Source of the DNA: a virus
IMG/VR virus record: IMGVR_UViG_3300049218_000480
Location: 1-33,559 of that record
Length of the DNA stretch: 33,559 bases
Direction: 5' to 3' (one strand)
Shown: one piece after another, positions 20,446 through 33,559 of the stretch
Position numbering within the stretch: the stretch's first letter is position 1
Layout: every line of letters starts with the position of its first letter
The notes under the pieces: model-generated
Seen by the model: the letters and a program-made list of their open reading frames with translations, nothing else
What the model was told of the DNA's origin: nothing
Databases searched by the model: none
Position numbers and translations under genes: made by a program

Positions 20446-20922
20446 TCAGACGTATCTACAAGTGAACCAGTCGAAGAACTCCATCACAAGCTGGATGTCT
20501 TCCTCGTAGTCCTCGCACCATGCCCGGATTTGTTCTAGCTGGTTGGCGTTGACGAGACACCGCGCTATCTCCGGCAGCGTGTCGAAGTCCTCTCCGCCGT
20601 GCGGTTCGAAGAATTCCAGTCGGTCCGCAGAAGAGGCTAGATGCTCAATAGCGGCGTCCACGCAGACGCTGTCCACCGATGCCGCCCTTTCAATGCACTC
20701 CGCCAGGCAGGCTCGCAGCTTCTCGACCACTGCGGTTATTCGCGTGCGTGCAGTTTCAGCAGCTAGGTCCTCTTCCTCGGCGCAGATGACGGTTACATCG
20801 TCACCTGCGCTCCAAAGGGCCACTAGCGCCGCTCCGGCAATTGCCATCCCGCCTGTGACCGTGCGATCGGGCGGGCGCTGCCATGAGTCGGCAAGTGGCC
20901 GTATCGGCACGACGTTGCTCAT
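20446..20922 (-). CDS. Hypothetical protein downstream of the antirepressor
   Basis: 158 residues, start overlapping the antirepressor stop as ATGA. Acidic and helical throughout (EEEDLAAETARTRITAVVEK, EYEEDIQ-like segments), Cys at several positions, ending WFTCRYV. Residues 25-37 form a short hydrophobic Ala/Gly stretch (GMAIAGAALVALW). No family recognised. Being in the ant operon it could modulate antirepressor activity, which is inference. Confidence 0.6.
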   Translation of the reverse strand: MSNVVPIRPLADSWQRPPDRTVTGGMAIAGAALVALWSAGDDVTVICAEEEDLAAETARTRITAVVEKLRACLAECIERAASVDSVCVDAAIEHLASSADRLEFFEPHGGEDFDTLPEIARCLVNANQLEQIRAWCEDYEEDIQLVMEFFDWFTCRYV

Positions 20923-21683
20923 GCCACGTCGTGCCTCGGGAAGAGTTCCAACACCGATTCCAGCCAGCGGAGTTGCTGGACCGGTGTGCCGTCGCTGTGC
21001 TGCTTTCCGGTGTCGAGCAGGACGGCGTAGGGCCTGCCGGCGTCGGTGGCCACCCAGGTGCCAGCGATACCCTTCTCTTGCACCCCTGCCCGCTCCAACC
21101 GCTTGTTGAAGGCTTGAGCCGATTCGCCCAGGGTGGCGCCGAGTTCTGTTGGCGTGCAGTGGCGTACCGGCTCGTCAGCGATCAAGTGCGTTGCACCCAC
21201 CAGATCGAGCGGATTCACGCCCATGACCAGTTCAATAGCCTTGGCGCCCGAAAGGATCGCCTGGTTGCCCTTGAAGCCGGCTAGCTTCGCGATGGCAAGC
21301 GCGCCCCGGAACTCGGAAGCGACACTGCGCAGGCCGGGACGGACGGGAGTATGCGCGCCCTGCTTTGCCTGACGCTCACACTCGATGAAGTAACGGCGTG
21401 CTTCCCTGCCCTTCTCGTTGCGCTCAACCATCGCCAGTTCCTTGGCCATGTCCAGCGAAACGGCGTACTCCATGGTCGGCCGGCCCCCAAAGGGGTTTTC
21501 GCCGGATTTGGCGACAACCTCGTAGTCCTGCCCGTCGATGAAACCGTACGCTTGAATCCGGTCCTTGATCCAGTTGGTGAAGTCCCTGCCCACCTGAAGG
21601 AACCGGTGGAGGTCGCGAGCGTCCACGGTCTGGACACCCTCACCGCCGATCTGGCGGCTACCGATGCGGATAAGCTCGTTCAT
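20919..21683 (-). CDS. AntA/AntB-type antirepressor
   Basis: 254 residues. The N-terminal half carries the AntA/AntB signature: TVDARDLHRFLQVGRDFTNWIKDRI, then RPTMEYAVSLDMAKELAMVERNEKGREARRYFIECER. The C-terminal part (about 115-254) is a KilA-C-like or variable partner domain. Antirepressors of this family bind phage repressor and trigger induction. The gene lies in an operon behind an Arc-like gene, as ant does in P22. This offers a RecA-independent route of induction. The partner repressor (at 22485 or 27939) is not determined. Confidence 0.87.
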   Translation of the reverse strand: MNELIRIGSRQIGGEGVQTVDARDLHRFLQVGRDFTNWIKDRIQAYGFIDGQDYEVVAKSGENPFGGRPTMEYAVSLDMAKELAMVERNEKGREARRYFIECERQAKQGAHTPVRPGLRSVASEFRGALAIAKLAGFKGNQAILSGAKAIELVMGVNPLDLVGATHLIADEPVRHCTPTELGATLGESAQAFNKRLERAGVQEKGIAGTWVATDAGRPYAVLLDTGKQHSDGTPVQQLRWLESVLELFPRHDVA

Positions 21684-22372: not shown

Positions 22373-22484
22373 GTTGCATTTCGTTGTGAAATGAATGGTG
22401 TTGCATTTCGTTGCGCTCGTCAACATTTTTTTTGTGTTTTGTTGCGAATCACATATCCTGTCGGTACACCCCAGGATTCTTGAT
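22373..22484. promoter_or_regulatory. Divergent operator region between arc-like and HTH-RHH repressor genes
   Basis: Two direct copies of GTTGCATTTCGTTG (22373-22386, 22400-22413) are 27 bases apart. The first also forms an inverted repeat CATTTC-N5-GAAATG (22377-22393). A T8 tract follows. Possible plus promoter TTGTGT (22432-22437) - N16 - TATCCT (22454-22459) for the repressor; a TTGACG (minus strand, 22418-22423) may be the -35 of the arc-ant promoter, with a poor -10. The repeats are likely binding sites for one or both regulators. Confidence 0.6.
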
Positions 22485-22937
22485 GTGACCGATTTCGCAA
22501 CACGCCTTAGAAAAGCTCGTCTAAAGGCTGGTCTATCCCAGCGCGAATTGGCGCGTTCAGCCGAAATCGACGTTAGCCAGATTTCTCGCTACGAGAAGGG
22601 CAGCGGGGAGCCCCGACCAGGCGCATTGAAGCGGATAGCAGAAAAGCTCGATTCAAGCGCGGAATGGCTTGCTACGGGCAATCCTGACTTCGACCCTGAA
22701 CTTACCACCCACGTCATAAAGCTGGATCTCGACCGGGACATTCAAGAGAAACTGAGGGCTATCGCCGAGCGAGATGGGCGAACGGTGGAAGATGTCGTAA
22801 GGATTGCGATGCTGGAGGCTCTTGCTTTATTCGATGAAGCCCCGCAAAAGGACGAGGCGAAGGACATCCCGGAACGACAAACTGATCCGGGCGGCCCTCC
22901 GCAAGGAACTCGGCCTTCAGCGAAGCGAAGAAAGTAG
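22485..22937 (+). CDS. HTH_XRE repressor with C-terminal ribbon-helix-helix
   Basis: 150 residues from GTG 22485, preceded by AGGA; a longer frame from 22395 runs through the repeat region and begins with implausible sequence. Residues 17-36 are a Cro/CI-type HTH (LSQRELARSAEIDVSQISRY). Residues about 75-117 (THVIKLDLDRDIQEKLRAIA, then DGRTVEDVVRIAMLEAL) look like a ribbon-helix-helix, an unusual second DNA-binding or dimerisation module. The tail is Pro/Lys-rich. It diverges from arc-ant, a Mnt-like place. The 3' end overlaps the Q-like gene (opposite strand) by 21 bases. Confidence 0.8.
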   Translation: MTDFATRLRKARLKAGLSQRELARSAEIDVSQISRYEKGSGEPRPGALKRIAEKLDSSAEWLATGNPDFDPELTTHVIKLDLDRDIQEKLRAIAERDGRTVEDVVRIAMLEALALFDEAPQKDEAKDIPERQTDPGGPPQGTRPSAKRRK

Positions 22938-27529: not shown

Positions 27530-27667
27530 ATGGGTGAGGTTGTTTCATTGCTTCGAGCTCGGCGCGCGCGCCGCCGCTGGCCGTCGAAATTCTTTCCACC
27601 CAGCAAAGCCCCCGTCGTCATACCCTTCCCTCTCTGGCGAGCGAGACCTCGCAGCAGGCCGGCGTGA
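27530..27667 (+). CDS. Possible 45-residue Arg-rich protein (antisense to early transcript)
   Basis: ATG 27530 is preceded by AAAGGAGA at ideal spacing. The product has an Arg-rich segment (LLRARRARRRWPSKFF) and a Pro/Arg-rich end. It runs against the early operon and its 3' end overlaps the 3' end of the Cro-like gene by 50 bases. The ribosome site is the main support; no homologue is recognised, and the composition could be a by-product of GC-rich sequence. Confidence 0.35.
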   Translation: MGEVVSLLRARRARRRWPSKFFPPSKAPVVIPFPLWRARPRSRPA

Positions 27668-27866
27668 TAGAGCCACGATCAACAGAGCCAACGCGCTCTT
27701 CGAAGAGCGTGTGCAATCGAACAGCCGGCATCCCGCCCGGATTCTTCGTCCGTCCCTGTTTCACGTCGGACACGCCCGGGAGCGACATTCCCGTCTGACG
27801 GGCGATCTCGGTTAGCGTCATTCCCGCGGCTTCAAGGGCGCGGACCTTTTCAGACCAAGTGTCCAT
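27618..27866 (-). CDS. Cro-like HTH regulator
   Basis: 82 residues. An HTH (residues about 15-38: GMTLTEIARQTGMSLPGVSDVKQGRT) with a short C-terminal part. First gene on the predicted PR transcript, divergent from the CI-like repressor, which is the Cro position. A site TTGACT - N18 - TAGGCT (27902-27873) lies just upstream of the start. Confidence 0.8.
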   Translation of the reverse strand: MDTWSEKVRALEAAGMTLTEIARQTGMSLPGVSDVKQGRTKNPGGMPAVRLHTLFEERVGSVDRGSITPACCEVSLAREGRV

Positions 27867-27872
27867 GCGCCC

Positions 27873-27938
27873 AGCCTATTGGATACCATAGGTCGAAGTC
27901 AATGGCATCCCATAATGCTTTTCCATAACTATCCGCCC
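27873..27938. promoter_or_regulatory. PR/PRM operator region
   Basis: Between the Cro-like and CI-like genes. On the minus strand PR: -35 TTGACT (27897-27902), -10 TAGGCT (27873-27878), 18-base spacer. Operator copies: ATGGCATCCCATA at 27902-27914 (plus reading) and a variant whose complement reads ATGGTATCCAATA at 27877-27889, one overlapping the -35 and one lying between -35 and -10. On the plus strand CATAAT (27911-27916) is a probable PRM -10 with a weak -35, as expected for a repressor maintenance promoter. Confidence 0.7.
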
Positions 27939-28562
27939 ATGACCATAGGTGAACGTATACGTGAGGCGCGCGAGCGCCTGAAAATGAGCCGGCCGGAGCT
28001 CGCGAAGGCGGCCGACATCCCGTATCCGACGCTAGCCGGTATAGAAAATAGTGATCAGGCGTCGAGCACCCGCCTCCATGCCCTGGCAAAGGCTCTAAAG
28101 GTGCGGCCTGAGTGGCTCGAAACCGGAAAAGGACCGTTAGAGGCTACTGTAGGCTCGCAGAGTGAAGAGGGCTGGGCCGACATCATCGGCGCGCGCCAAG
28201 CCACCGCCTTGGGCGATGGCACGATAGTTGGCGACTACGCCGAAACTCACAAGCTGAAGTTCCGTGCCGAAAGCCTGCGCCGGAAGCACTTGGACCCTGC
28301 CAAACTGGCTGTCTTCCGCACAGAAGATGACCAATCGCTCCTGTTCGACACTTCAGATGTCGAGCCGCGTGACGAAAAGCTCTATGTAGTGAGCTTCGGC
28401 GGCAAACTTTCCGCAAAGCGCCTGCTAGACCTAGGTGGTCGGTGGTTCGTCACGAGCGACCGGTCGTCGGACCCGAAGTGGAAGAAGCCCGTCGCCGTAG
28501 ACGATCTCAGCGACTTCGCCATCCACGGCCGTGTGCGGTGGATTGGAAGCTGGGAAGACTGA
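27939..28562 (+). CDS. CI-like repressor with degenerate S24 domain
   Basis: 207 residues from ATG 27939; earlier in-frame starts run through the operators. HTH_XRE at residues 17-36 (SRPELAKAADIPYPTLAGIE). The C-terminal part (about 105-207) has the S24/LexA-like beta layout with a Lys at 160 in KLSAKRLL, but the place of the conserved GDSM is DDQSL (131-134), so the catalytic serine position seems altered. No clear Ala-Gly cleavage site is seen between the domains. It likely holds the lysogenic state through the repeats at 27.9 and 30.1 kb. Confidence 0.85.
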   Translation: MTIGERIREARERLKMSRPELAKAADIPYPTLAGIENSDQASSTRLHALAKALKVRPEWLETGKGPLEATVGSQSEEGWADIIGARQATALGDGTIVGDYAETHKLKFRAESLRRKHLDPAKLAVFRTEDDQSLLFDTSDVEPRDEKLYVVSFGGKLSAKRLLDLGGRWFVTSDRSSDPKWKKPVAVDDLSDFAIHGRVRWIGSWED

Positions 28563-28609
28563 AATGCGCACGGCATCCCTTGCCGTGGCCCCAATGCAAG
28601 GAATGCTCG

Positions 28610-29062
28610 ATGATCCCCCAACTGGATGGCCTTGGCCTGATCCCTCCCGGAGTATGGGATTGCACATTCGCAGAAATTGAGAATGCCTTCTGCTGGAATG
28701 ATCATCGTCGCGCGCTTTGGGCGGACCTCACGCGGTTTCTCACGGATGTATACGCTGTGGCCGCGCCCGGGATGCCGGTGTGGATAGACGGCAGTTTCAC
28801 TCGATCGAAGCCATTGCCAGCCGACATCGACTTAGTCATCGACTTCAGCTCCGAGGCAATCGACGCGGTGGCCGCGACGATGATATCGCTTCGCAAACGA
28901 GCTGCCGACTACAAGAGGGACTATCATCTAGATGTCTGGGTTAGGCACCCTGAGTTACCCCGAGACCTAGCCGAATTCTTCCAATACGTGGGGGACAAGG
29001 CAGCCGCCGAACTTAGTCTTCAGCCTACAGATCCGAAGGGCATTTTGAGGGTTTCCCCATGA
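28610..29062 (+). CDS. Minimal nucleotidyltransferase (DUF6932-like)
   Basis: 150 residues from ATG 28610, with AAGGAA about 8 bases upstream. The opening LIPPGVWDCTFAEIENAFCWN and the core PVWIDGSFTRSKPLPADIDL fit the DUF6932 family of small Pol-beta-type nucleotidyltransferases. The catalytic signature is complete: G61-S62, D72 and D74, and a third acid D108 in YHLDVWV. Such proteins transfer nucleotides to protein or RNA substrates in toxin-antitoxin and abortive infection systems. It follows the repressor by 47 bases and overlaps the next gene as ATGA, so the pair would be expressed in the lysogen. Substrate unknown. Confidence 0.8.
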   Translation: MIPQLDGLGLIPPGVWDCTFAEIENAFCWNDHRRALWADLTRFLTDVYAVAAPGMPVWIDGSFTRSKPLPADIDLVIDFSSEAIDAVAATMISLRKRAADYKRDYHLDVWVRHPELPRDLAEFFQYVGDKAAAELSLQPTDPKGILRVSP

Positions 29063-30030
29063 GTTGGACAGAGCACGCCAACGATACCCTCAGGATGTTC
29101 CTAGAGAACATCATTGCCGAAGGCCGACTGGCAGAACGCTTCGGTCTTGATGCGTCTTCGAACGACATTATCGAATCCAGCAGAGAAGCTTTGCAGGACG
29201 TCATCCATCGAGGCCTGCCTATGGCGAAGCTCATGGACGAGTCAGACCTTATTCTCCATGCGGAAGGCCCTGCCGTTCGGGACAATGCACCAAGCCTGGC
29301 AGCTTTTAGCTGGATGGCCGGCACAGTGCAATCGTCTCTGCGAGAGCTTTCTCGAAGCATCTTCGATCTTCTGGAGCGCGATGCGCGGATGCTTTCAAGA
29401 AATCTGGATCTGCGCGTCACCGGGACGGCGCCAGGCAGTCTGTACATGGGTTTCGCCATTGGAACAAGGAGTGCTGATCTTCTGGCCAACGAGGCGGAGC
29501 CGGTGATGAGGCACATCCGCGACACTGTACACACGCTTCCCCTGCTCACACTCGCAATCGGAGACAACGAAATCTCCTCAGAAGCCGCCCAGATTGTGCC
29601 GGACGCAGCCGAAAGAGACTCTTCATTCGCGGCTCTCCTGAAGCTCTCGCCAACGGGAAAACGCGGCATTCATACCATTGATCTATCGGCCCCAGGATTT
29701 TCCCGTGGCAGCCTTTCGCAGCGAGAAAGGGTAGTCCTCCACGATGCATTGCGCGCACCTGTCCTCGCGAACAAGCGGCATGGGAGTTTCGTGGGACAGA
29801 TCCGACAGATCGACCTTGATACTCAGCGTATGCACCTAAGGAACGTCAGCGGCGTCGGAAGTCTCCGATGCGCCCTTCCGCTTCTCGATTTGCACCAAGC
29901 AAAGCTGCTGATCGGCGAGCAAGTCCGCGCTGAGGGTGAATACGAAATGGATCGAAACGGGCGGCCGCGCCTCCTTTTGGTTAACCGCATTGATCCAATA
30001 TCAATACCCTCACAAGGTGAGCTGCTCTAG
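29059..30030 (+). CDS. Unrecognised partner protein of the nucleotidyltransferase
   Basis: 323 residues, ATG overlapping the nucleotidyltransferase stop (ATGA), so translation is coupled. Residues 1-115 are helical, 120-165 contain a beta segment (LDLRVTGTAPGSLYMGFAI), and the C-terminal 85 residues look like a small beta-barrel of OB/SH3 type (GSFVGQIRQIDLDTQRMHLRNVSG, then GEQVRAEGEYEMDRNGRPRL). No transmembrane segment. I do not recognise the family. Its stoichiometric coupling to an NTase and its place after the repressor suggest a partner, target or effector of an exclusion or toxin-antitoxin pair. Confidence 0.7.
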   Translation: MSWTEHANDTLRMFLENIIAEGRLAERFGLDASSNDIIESSREALQDVIHRGLPMAKLMDESDLILHAEGPAVRDNAPSLAAFSWMAGTVQSSLRELSRSIFDLLERDARMLSRNLDLRVTGTAPGSLYMGFAIGTRSADLLANEAEPVMRHIRDTVHTLPLLTLAIGDNEISSEAAQIVPDAAERDSSFAALLKLSPTGKRGIHTIDLSAPGFSRGSLSQRERVVLHDALRAPVLANKRHGSFVGQIRQIDLDTQRMHLRNVSGVGSLRCALPLLDLHQAKLLIGEQVRAEGEYEMDRNGRPRLLLVNRIDPISIPSQGELL

Positions 30031-30116: not shown

Positions 30117-30158
30117 TATGGGATGCCATTGACACCGATATATGGCATCCCATAGGAT
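30117..30158 (+). promoter_or_regulatory. PL-like promoter with two repressor operators
   Basis: -35 TTGACA (30129-30134), 18-base spacer, -10 TAGGAT (30153-30158). The 13-base operator ATGGCATCCCATA occurs twice in opposite orientation: complement at 30117-30129, overlapping the -35, and direct at 30142-30154, between -35 and -10. The 40-base segment 30117-30156 matches the PR segment at 27875-27914 (minus strand) at 34 of 40 positions, so both are likely silenced by the same repressor. Confidence 0.8.
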
Positions 30159-30191
30159 ATATCCATCGACCAACGTCCGGGAGGACATCCG

Positions 30192-30371
30192 ATGGGTATC
30201 ACAACCGCTTTCCCCGCCGCTTGGAACATGGGCTTCGACGACGCCTTGGGCTCGCTGAAGCCCTGCCCGCCCAGGAACATGACGCTCCCTGGCCAGCGGG
30301 AGGCGTACCTCGCTGGCCACAAGGCCGCGGTGAAGGCCAACCGTCCCTCCCGCGCGTCGAAGGAGGGCTGA
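30192..30371 (+). CDS. Small Rmf/CrpP-like protein
   Basis: 59 residues, ATG preceded by GGGAGGA. The pattern WNMGFDDALGSLKPCPP...REAYLAGHKAA recalls the ribosome modulation factor (Rmf/CrpP) family, which has an N-terminal helix ending in G, a CP motif, and a C-terminal WLxGW-like helix (here YLAGH). First gene behind the PL-like promoter. The family link is weak because the sequence is short. RMF-like phage proteins could affect host ribosomes or act elsewhere. Confidence 0.5.
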   Translation: MGITTAFPAAWNMGFDDALGSLKPCPPRNMTLPGQREAYLAGHKAAVKANRPSRASKEG

Positions 30372-30374
30372 GCC

Positions 30375-31490
30375 ATGGTCGCTGTCATGAAGGAAGTCTC
30401 GGCGCCGCGGGCTGCCGCACGTAAAACTACAACTGCCTCCGCTGCTGCGGGACCGTTCGCTCAGTACCTCGACAAAGTTGACGAGTCGACCGCAAAGCTC
30501 ATCCGCACCGATAAGCCGATCCGCGAGCCGGAAACCGATCCGATCGCGCGCGCCATACGTCAGATGGGCGGTATCAGCCGAGCGAGCGAGAAGACCTCGA
30601 TCTCCTGCCCCCAACTGCTTGAAATCATCTTCGGCGGCGATGGCGTGGATGCAAGCGACTGTGTCCTTATCGAACGCGGCTGCTTGCAGAAGGTCATGTG
30701 CGAGGAAATGCGCCCGGATCTCCTGTGGTTCCGCGATGCTGGTAATGAGGTCGTTGGATTCGCCCAGCGCATCGACAGCCAGCCGGCCGACCTCGACGCC
30801 GCCATCAAAGCCCGCTTTGCCGACATGGGTGCAACCGCCGGCAACGCTGCCACGGATAAGGTGACGCCCTTCCTCACCGATCCTCGCCTTGAAGAGCTGA
30901 CCAAAGCCGCGCTGGAAACGGTGCGTGTAATCAGCTCTGTGAAAGATCACTTTGTGCGCGGCGTGGTAGTTGTCGGCCCCGATGCGTCGGAAGGCTGGAC
31001 CCCTTGGGGCAAGCATGGCGTTTTCACCACGCTCTCCGACGCAGCGCGAAATCTGGACAAGATCACAGGCGACGTGCTCGTTGCGGTCCATCGGGCAAAC
31101 AATACACCGCCGGATACTACGCTCGACCGGAGCGCAGTGATGCGAGAGCTCTTTGCCAGCGATGACGACACGCCATATTGGCAATCAGTCGCCCTTACCG
31201 ACGCCTGTAGATACCTAACAGTGGAGGTCGCCGATCAGCACACGGCGGAGCGGATCGCCCAGGGTTGCGACAACCTGCTTCACACGTTCGAACATGGCCT
31301 GGCAGGTCTCGCAACCATGCAATGGCATCTCTCGGTGAGCGATGCCAAGAACAACGTGGAGTCATGGGCGGTTTCTAACGTCCTGTATCTCACCAAGGCG
31401 ATCGCAGAGTACGCCATCGAGCTTCGCGGCCTGAAGGACGCCGCAGACACGCGACTCAAGCAGCTGGATAAGTCGTTCGGCACTAAATGA
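30375..31490 (+). CDS. Unrecognised early protein of the PL-like operon
   Basis: 371 residues, ATG three bases after the previous stop with AAGGAGGG in front. Alpha/beta composition; residues 1-35 look disordered (Ala/Thr/Lys-rich), then a globular part with SRASEKTSISCPQLLEIIFG, MRPDLLWFRDAGNEVV and RGVVVVGPDASEGWTP segments, and helical C-terminus (AIAEYAIELRGLKDAADTRLKQLD). No domain identified. A mirror-strand frame of similar length exists but lacks a ribosome site and plausible composition. Probably an early phage function under repressor control. Confidence 0.7.
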   Translation: MVAVMKEVSAPRAAARKTTTASAAAGPFAQYLDKVDESTAKLIRTDKPIREPETDPIARAIRQMGGISRASEKTSISCPQLLEIIFGGDGVDASDCVLIERGCLQKVMCEEMRPDLLWFRDAGNEVVGFAQRIDSQPADLDAAIKARFADMGATAGNAATDKVTPFLTDPRLEELTKAALETVRVISSVKDHFVRGVVVVGPDASEGWTPWGKHGVFTTLSDAARNLDKITGDVLVAVHRANNTPPDTTLDRSAVMRELFASDDDTPYWQSVALTDACRYLTVEVADQHTAERIAQGCDNLLHTFEHGLAGLATMQWHLSVSDAKNNVESWAVSNVLYLTKAIAEYAIELRGLKDAADTRLKQLDKSFGTK

Positions 31491-32014: not shown

Positions 32015-33559
32015 ATGCGAACAGCTGCCTACGCCAGATACAGTTCCGACGCCCAGCGCGACGCCAGCCTGGAAGACCAGCTGCGCAATTGCCGCGCCTA
32101 TTGCGCACGCATGGGGTGGCCTGAGCCGTCCGTCTACACCGACGCCGCCGTGAGCGGATCACGCCTGGACCGAGAGGCCTACCAGCGGCTTCTTTCCGAG
32201 GCGCACCGCTTCGATGTGTTGCTGGTAGATGACCTTTCCCGCTTTGGCCGCGACAGCGCTGAGCTAACCATGACAGTGCGCCGTTTGAAGTTTGCCGGGG
32301 TCCGGCTAATCGGCGTGAGCGATGGCGTCGATACGGAGCGAAAGTCACACAAGGCCGACGTGGGGCTGCGCAGCCTCATGTCCGAAATGTATCTCGACGA
32401 TCTGGCCGACAAGGTGCACCGCGGCCTCACAGGGCGCGCGCTGTCGGGCGCGAGCGCGGGGGGCCTGCCCTACGGCTACCGAATCACCACCGTGGGCTAC
32501 CGAGCGATCGACGAAGCTCAAGCAGCGATCGTGCGGCGTATCTTCGACGAGTATGTTGCCGGGTCCAGCCCCCGCGAGATCGTCTCAGGCCTCAACCGCG
32601 ACCGTGTGCCATCTTCCCGAGGCGGCGACTGGTACGTCAGCGCGGTCTATCCGGACCGGAAGCGCGGCATAGGCATCCTTGCCAACGCCATCTACGTTGG
32701 CCGGCAGATATGGAACCGCAGCCATTTCGTGAAGCACCCCGACACCGGGCGCCGGCTCCGCCAGGACCGCCCTCCGTCCGAGTGGATCATCACAGAGCAC
32801 CCCGAACTGGCCATCATCGACGAGGCGACCTGGGAGGCAGCACAGTCACGCGCACGGAAGTCCACGAACGATACCAGCGGCAGCAGTACGAAGCCTGCGC
32901 GGCCAGGGCGCCCCATCCGCTACCTGCTGAGCGGCATACTGCGGTGCGGCGACTGCGGCGGCCCCATGGTCATCGTCGATCGCTACCGCTACGGGTGCTC
33001 CGTCGCCAAGGATCGCGGCCCCACGGCCTGCCCCAGCACTCTGAAGGTCGCCAGGGAGCCCGCTGAGCGCGCCCTTGTGGCTGGGGTGCAGCGGGAACTG
33101 CTCACGGAGACGGCATTTCAGCGATTCACCGCGGCCGTCACCGCTCAGCTGAAAAGGGCGGCTCCCGATACAGAGGCGACCAAGCGGAGGCTCGCTGAGG
33201 CCGAGAAGGTGCACGCGAACGTGATGGCGGCCATCCGCGCCGGCATCGTTACGCCGAGCACCAGGGCGGAGCTTGTCAGGGCCGAGGGAGAGGTAGAGGC
33301 TGCGCGCGCGGACTTGGCGGCGTTGAAATCGTTCCAGCCGGCGCAGATCCTGCCGCGTGCTCGTGAAACGTGGCGCAGGCTCGTCGCCGAACTGACAACC
33401 GTGGCGGACACCCAACGCGCCCGTGATGCTCTGCGCGAGCTTATCGGCGAATCCGTGCGCGTCACAAAAGAAAACGGCGCGATCTTTGGAGAGATCGCGC
33501 CGTTCCAGATAAACCTGGTAGCGGGGGTAGGATTCGAACCTACGACCTTCGGGTTATGA
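32015..33559 (+). CDS. Large serine recombinase (phage integrase)
   Basis: 514 residues. N-terminal resolvase catalytic domain with YARYSSDAQ (catalytic Ser10, Arg8) and LSRFGRD (74-80, Arg76/Arg79). A recombinase domain follows (residues about 160-260), then a zinc ribbon with C311, C314, C328 and C339, and a C-terminal coiled coil (about 370-430). It integrates and, with a helper, excises the prophage. The last residues GVGFEPTTFGL are translated from tRNA sequence on the opposite strand, and the stop TGA (33557-33559) falls in the tRNA anticodon loop. The 3' end also covers the tRNA's terminator. Confidence 0.95.
   Translation: MRTAAYARYSSDAQRDASLEDQLRNCRAYCARMGWPEPSVYTDAAVSGSRLDREAYQRLLSEAHRFDVLLVDDLSRFGRDSAELTMTVRRLKFAGVRLIGVSDGVDTERKSHKADVGLRSLMSEMYLDDLADKVHRGLTGRALSGASAGGLPYGYRITTVGYRAIDEAQAAIVRRIFDEYVAGSSPREIVSGLNRDRVPSSRGGDWYVSAVYPDRKRGIGILANAIYVGRQIWNRSHFVKHPDTGRRLRQDRPPSEWIITEHPELAIIDEATWEAAQSRARKSTNDTSGSSTKPARPGRPIRYLLSGILRCGDCGGPMVIVDRYRYGCSVAKDRGPTACPSTLKVAREPAERALVAGVQRELLTETAFQRFTAAVTAQLKRAAPDTEATKRRLAEAEKVHANVMAAIRAGIVTPSTRAELVRAEGEVEAARADLAALKSFQPAQILPRARETWRRLVAELTTVADTQRARDALRELIGESVRVTKENGAIFGEIAPFQINLVAGVGFEPTTFGL
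33462..33504 (-). terminator. Terminator of the tRNA gene, inside the recombinase 3' end
   Basis: On the minus strand a 13-bp stem (33473-33485 with 33492-33504; loop TTGGAG on the plus strand) is followed by TTTTCTTTT. It lies 12 bases after the tRNA CCA, the normal place for a tRNA terminator. It is also read as recombinase codons (GAIFGEIAPF). Confidence 0.8.
33516..33559 (-). tRNA. 3' part of tRNA-Met (anticodon CAT), cut by the window edge
   Basis: The minus strand reads TCATAA (anticodon loop with CAT), a 3' anticodon stem CCCGA, variable loop AGGTC, the T arm GTAGG-TTCGAAT-CCTAC, acceptor CCCCGCT, discriminator A and encoded CCA. The 5' half lies beyond the window. The CAT anticodon means Met (initiator or elongator) or lysidine-modified Ile. 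It is the integration target or its copy at the prophage end. Confidence 0.85.

Follow-up and report, generated by a model that had tools for sequence, protein, structure and literature searches.

A DUF6932 nucleotidyltransferase and a divergent PDC-M63B-like partner as a candidate defence cassette in the rexAB position of a phage repressor operon

The interval between CI and N in phage genomes is a known hotspot for abortive infection (Abi) genes, among them rexAB and bstA (PMC8585504). Nucleotidyltransferases (NTases) are found in several two-gene systems, and the NTase toxins of the MenT group pair with diverse antitoxins (PMC10435456). One further pair, PDC-M63, is listed by PADLOC as a candidate defence system and consists of M63A, a DUF6932 NTase, followed by M63B, a protein of about 310 aa; with DUF6932 also described in Pfam, the kind of system that we discuss here is already known as a prediction. 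Our literature search found no paper mentioning DUF6932, and a single one naming PDC-M63. The PDC-M63AB genes of E. coli NILS69 have been deleted, and infection by 10 virulent phages was unchanged, in tests with a phage collection that contains no temperate phages (PMC12409345).

Here, we describe a computational analysis of a locus in which a DUF6932 NTase and a second protein follow a CI-like repressor. What is new, as judged from sequence comparison, is a member of the pair that fails the M63B model and passes a profile-profile test only. An uncharacterised candidate defence pair is in this way extended to a partner that current defence finders miss because of its divergence. Furthermore, the preferred place of the pair is the repressor operon, which also houses rexAB and bstA; this placement makes temperate and lambdoid phages infecting a lysogen, and not virulent phages only, the relevant challenge.

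Layout of the repressor operon

The window, the whole 33.6-kb stretch that was analysed, is an IMG/VR virus record. The features of the locus are as follows.

27618..27866, minus strand: small HTH regulator resembling Cro, 82 aa, oriented away from CI (matches phrog_6223, transcriptional repressor, at E=4.9e-14)
27875..27914, inverted arm: right operator/promoter, OR-PR/PRM-like, with a pair of ATGGGATGCCAT-type sites at a 25-bp distance
27939..28562, plus strand: CI-like repressor, 207 aa, HTH_3 and degenerate S24-like domain (PF01381, E=6.1e-10; phrog_4, transcriptional repressor, E=4.1e-28)
28610..29062, plus strand: DUF6932 nucleotidyltransferase, 150 aa, PDC-M63A-like (PF22014, E=4.6e-27; PDC-M63A, E=9.8e-15)
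29059..30030, plus strand: partner, 323 aa, divergent PDC-M63B-like (profile-profile P=4.9e-7; AlphaFold2 and Foldseek OB matches)
29776..29997, plus strand: predicted OB fold in the partner, spanning about residues 240-313 (AlphaFold2 strand order, Foldseek)
30117..30156, inverted arm: left operator/promoter, OL-PL-like, with TTGACA-18-TAGGAT at 30129-30158
30375..31490, plus strand: first long early gene past the left operator, 371 aa with a YdaS-like N-terminus (a PF15943 match below cut-off, E=3.6e-6)

On the plus strand the repressor gene is separated by a 47-nt gap from the NTase reading frame, which starts at ATG 28610 with an AAGGA ribosome-binding site 5 nt upstream and overlaps the partner gene by four nucleotides (ATGA, 29059-29062). 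A recheck of the sequence found the reading frames, this overlap and the NTase residues G61-S62, D72/D74 and D108 as an earlier note on this DNA had described them. The span given there, 27939-30030, takes in the repressor gene as well.

The earlier note had also put the cargo pair between two copies of an operator-promoter, in the place of lambda rexAB, and the comparison of the flanks bears this out: the 40-nt arms at 27875-27914 and 30117-30156 are inverted and 85% complementary. In each arm the near-palindrome ATGGGATGCCAT occurs twice, at a distance of 25 bp; of the four copies three are exact and one has 2 mismatches, and the TTGACA-18-TAGGAT promoter spans the left-hand pair. Chance similarity is excluded by these copies and by an arm similarity score of 22, compared with at most 11 in 30 shuffles. 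A cassette-specific terminator was considered as well and ruled out by a hairpin z of -1.8 and the lack of a T run. The repressor, the NTase and the partner thus form a rexAB-position arrangement between two inverted operator/promoter copies. A simple ungapped test gave no evident inverted operator pair around the cassette in most relatives, and we therefore claim operator flanking for the window only and, for the relatives, a position after the repressor.

The YdaS-like early gene forms the right border of the cassette. We take it as such because its homolog lies directly 3' of CI in phage L069, which is related to the window phage through the replication protein and the YdaS-like gene; there, CI is followed by the YdaS-like gene within about 80 bp and the cassette is absent. 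Two other relatives of the window phage have small unrelated genes after CI. Given a relative that has no cassette and others that have different small genes at this point, the cassette is interchangeable cargo at the rex site.

Several other elements of the window may be recorded here. A leader, ATCGACCA-CGTCCGGGAGGACATCCGATGGG, lies immediately 5' of the early gene and is near-identical in the window (30164-30195) and in L069 (about 3475-3440), despite repressors that are only 26% identical; it has CCATCG at its start and CGATGG at its end, and may fold into a hairpin that encloses the ribosome-binding site. The S24 match of the CI protein is weak (E=0.033), and visual inspection suggests that the GDSM motif has its catalytic Ser replaced (TEDDQSLL) with the Lys kept (SAKRL), a reading under which the repressor may not be cleavable through RecA. 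A large serine integrase gene (32015-33559) runs exactly to the final base of the record, its product having the C-terminus VGFEPTTFGL, and the 3' end of this gene may hold the boundary of the prophage or its attachment site. Finally, a 254-aa protein at 20919-21683 has by eye the look of an AntA-type antirepressor, and near it on the opposite strand is a second XRE-type gene (22395-22937); the two are possibly a second regulatory switch.

The nucleotidyltransferase and its partner

The first cargo gene encodes a member of DUF6932 (PF22014), with a score of 95.6 bits against a cut-off of 27 over residues 3-148 (profile positions 1-141). It also matches the PADLOC M63A model PDLC04744. The complete minimal nucleotidyltransferase triad that had been read from the sequence is borne out by the family: R33, G61, S62, P70, D72, D74 and K143 are invariant in 29/29 aligned NTase relatives, and position 108, the third carboxylate, is D or E in every one of them. 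The catalytic signature, GS(61-62)-x9-D72-x-D74 with D108 and K143, is thus kept family-wide. Weak matches of several DUF6932 members to Pfam Polbeta and DNA_pol_B_palm (best 0.0086), together with this signature, point to a place in the Pol-beta superfamily. The DUF6932 profile matches CD-NTases weakly (6e0m, E=0.16), and the window partner is no known CBASS effector. The AbiEii/DUF1814 NTase domain is absent from the Pfam matches of the 29 family members. In the NTase tree the window protein lies on a long branch (1.89), nearest a group of DUF6932 proteins with XRE partners, a grouping that is unsure.

The partner had been said to belong to no recognised family, a statement that stands for direct searches and falls in profile-profile comparison. 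Direct sequence searches gave no match in phages, plasmids, viral contigs, genome contigs or PDB sequences, and direct model searches gave none in Pfam, PHROGs, NCBIfam or PADLOC. The PADLOC M63B models do not match the window partner at E<=1; they do match the partners at loci L003, L044, L051 and L066. Elsewhere, the proteins adjacent to DUF6932 are roughly 310 aa long, usually with an ATGA overlap, and fall into two diverged clades, homologous to each other from end to end (P=5e-11): clade 1 from enterobacterial phages (phrog_6603, PADLOC PDC-M63B) and clade 2 (phrog_18731) from other prophages and from the genomes of proteobacteria. With single-clade profiles the window partner reached no better than P=0.0018-0.04, and hmmsearch did not separate it from shuffles. 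Only the merged 38-sequence profile was decisive, with an hhalign P of 4.9e-7 and a score of 51.8 for a colinear alignment of residues 113-309 to profile positions 111-298, compared with best scores of 23.0 among 150 shuffles and 22.6 among 117 unrelated ORFs. On the strength of this colinear match, far above both controls, we identify the window partner as a very divergent relative of PDC-M63B, at about 13-23% identity to M63B-like proteins. Neither a HEPN domain, a nuclease nor another catalytic family was detected in it, and HEPN is also absent from its relatives; antitoxin domains of the winged-HTH or kinase type were likewise not detected.

A separate observation concerns the M63B-like partners in general, which are weakly similar to PADLOC PDC-M32A and PDC-M02B; this suggests that the partners in several candidate systems belong to one broader family.

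The AlphaFold2 model of a clade-2 phage partner is confident (pLDDT 87, pTM 0.75); it begins with two helices, continues with a central alpha/beta domain and closes, at the C-terminus, with a barrel of the order b1-b2-b3-a-b4-b5. The model of the window partner has closely the same elements in the same order, with only the barrel confident (mean pLDDT 58.5 overall); as it shares its alignment with the homology test, this agreement in secondary structure is not independent evidence. The possible C-terminal beta-barrel noted earlier is supported as a predicted OB fold over residues about 240-313, where the block-mean pLDDT is 78-93. Foldseek matches this barrel best to the OB folds of RPA, CST, SSB and lysyl-tRNA synthetase (LysRS), and we infer an RPA/SSB-like OB fold. 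The OB fold is a common nucleic-acid-binding module with diverse ligands. The full partner has no full-length match in the PDB, and outside the barrel, including the central alpha/beta domain, no solved relative was found; against a viral structure library the full-length protein gave a weak match to a protein of Leptospira phage LE1 (E=2e-5, TM about 0.3). Conserved residues of the catalytic site and of the OB domain are targets for mutation.

Distribution of the pair and its proposed function

The conserved pair was sought elsewhere, as the earlier note had proposed, and was found 3' of repressors in many phages, in the form listed as PDC-M63; the refuting case named in the note, a pair that occurs together nowhere else, is thereby ruled out. 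It lies directly 3' of the repressor in Erwinia phage vB_EhrS_59, in PhiR30_1 and mEpX1, in a Rac-like E. coli prophage, in a Klebsiella prophage and in one example E. coli genome. Ten further upstream proteins, from loci of both partner clades, all have repressor-type domains, nine matching HTH and/or CI-repressor models and one (L097) S24 only; several clade-2 viral loci have other genes upstream, and thus not all follow a repressor. The 4-nt ATGA overlap is present in 29/29 viral contigs of the enterobacterial clade. Among bacterial genomes, the pair is carried by 96 of 5,426 complete E. coli genomes, and DUF6932 by 17 of 398 Pseudomonadota genomes at 18 loci. A partner gene lies immediately 3' of DUF6932 at every one of these 18 loci; it is intact and M63B-like at 13, truncated and M63B-like at 1 and of the XRE type at 4. 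DUF6932 therefore has at least two unrelated types of partner, M63B-like and XRE-IrrE.

We propose, with a probability of about one half, that the window pair is a lysogen-expressed defence cassette of the PDC-M63 kind, in which the NTase is the effector and the OB-fold partner its regulator or sensor. Both genes would share the lysogen promoter and the transcript of CI, and both proteins would be made in the lysogen while the lytic genes are silent. The effector would be a minimal Pol-beta-type NTase that adds nucleotides to RNA, most likely tRNA, or to protein. The translationally coupled partner would bind the NTase and hold it in check, and its OB domain may sense a nucleic-acid state brought about by an incoming phage, such as single-stranded DNA in replication. 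Upon infection the NTase would be released or directed, translation or replication would stop, and the superinfecting phage would be blocked. The NTase substrate and the sensing step are guesses. We place the effector role with the NTase because it is the constant component across otherwise unrelated partners, as are MenT toxins, and exclusion of a superinfecting phage is proposed as the outcome on the model of rexAB and bstA, which occupy this site in other phages.

The main rival explanation, which the earlier note had also raised, reverses these roles: in a type VII-like toxin-antitoxin (TA) system the partner would be the toxin and the NTase an antitoxin that nucleotidylates it, as in MntA-HepT. 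The window NTase is of the same minimal type as MntA, with x9 in place of the MntA spacing GSX10DXD (PMC7641770), its catalytic residues are invariant, and the short overlapping operon has the NTase gene first. Additionally, at the chromosomal locus L062 the NTase gene is open and the partner gene truncated, which resembles the remnant of an antitoxin left alone and is a mild argument against a toxic NTase restrained by its partner. The partner, however, lacks a HEPN domain, and neither a nuclease nor any other catalytic family was detected in it; moreover, an NTase that stays constant across unrelated partners is easier to understand as the effector. We consider this reversal of roles unlikely.

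The unchanged infection of the NILS69 deletion strain counts against the defence reading, and it would fit a role in lysogen housekeeping or regulation, in which the pair modifies an RNA or a protein of the host, or adjusts how the prophage replicates or is induced; the CI operon would then simply be the only site expressed in the lysogen. The presence of clade-2 relatives in bacterial genomes is also consistent with such a role. The patchy spread of the family among Pseudomonadota and E. coli genomes, on the other hand, suits accessory defence better, and the plasmid-borne forms with XRE partners adjoin reverse-transcriptase, TA and other defence-type genes. A housekeeping function is thus, in our view, distinctly unlikely.

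The forms with XRE partners were found at loci L004, L005, L006, L007, L009, L010, L052, L056, L057 and L063, where the partners are XRE-ImmA/IrrE fusions like PD-Lambda-2_B or, in cyanobacterial plasmids, XRE-only proteins; some of these loci adjoin reverse-transcriptase, helicase and TA genes. These pairs are a candidate for a second, larger defence or TA family with this NTase as its common element.

A pure addiction module, which would stabilise the prophage and have no anti-phage effect, would account for the TA-like anatomy of two coupled genes and for the pairing of plasmid DUF6932 genes with antitoxin-like XRE proteins. Prophage inheritance is, however, already stable, and the cassette occupies a site known for exclusion genes (PMC8585504), and we regard an addiction module as very improbable. 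The defence reading can also be widened. DUF6932 might be a new family of phage-defence NTase effectors with interchangeable regulators (OB M63B-like, XRE-IrrE and XRE-only), the OB form being a nucleic-acid-sensing NTase switch that many unrelated temperate phages carry at their rex site; this extension is tentative, and we hold it to be doubtful.

Comparison with known systems

In lambda, rexA and rexB are likewise two genes after cI and before the left operator that are presumably made in the lysogen, but they encode a sensor and a membrane channel, whereas the window pair encodes an NTase and a predicted OB protein. Homology to RexAB was rejected, with no Rex family match in Pfam, PHROGs or NCBIfam at E<=1. 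BstA of BTP1-type prophages is likewise encoded in the cI-N interval, by a defence gene 3' of the repressor (PMC8585504); this differs in being a single gene with an aba self-immunity site, and the protein is unrelated to the window pair.

Among NTase systems, the type IV TA systems MenAT and AbiE resemble the window pair in combining an NTase with diverse partner proteins and in their link to phage defence (PMC10435456). Membership was rejected, as DUF6932 is not DUF1814/AbiEii and the partner has no detected winged-HTH or kinase antitoxin domain. MntA-HepT (type VII TA) shares a minimal NTase with a partner, a two-gene operon and the GSxDxD motif; the HEPN/MNT group was rejected, for there is no HEPN protein and the window partner has a predicted OB fold. 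The pairs with PD-lambda-2-like XRE-IrrE partners also have a DUF6932 NTase upstream of an overlapping partner. That partner contains an HTH and an ImmA/IrrE peptidase, neither of which is present in the window partner, and membership of this group was rejected; PD-lambda-2 itself has a HigB-like first component.

The closest described system is PDC-M63. The window partner differs from M63B in its length of 323 aa and in being missed by every M63B model, the window NTase lies on its long branch nearest the XRE-partnered DUF6932 group, and the window phage is unrelated to lambdoid enterophages. The two-gene composition and the gene order are common to both, and the window pair occupies the same site after the repressor as PDC-M63 does in E. 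coli, Klebsiella and Erwinia phages.
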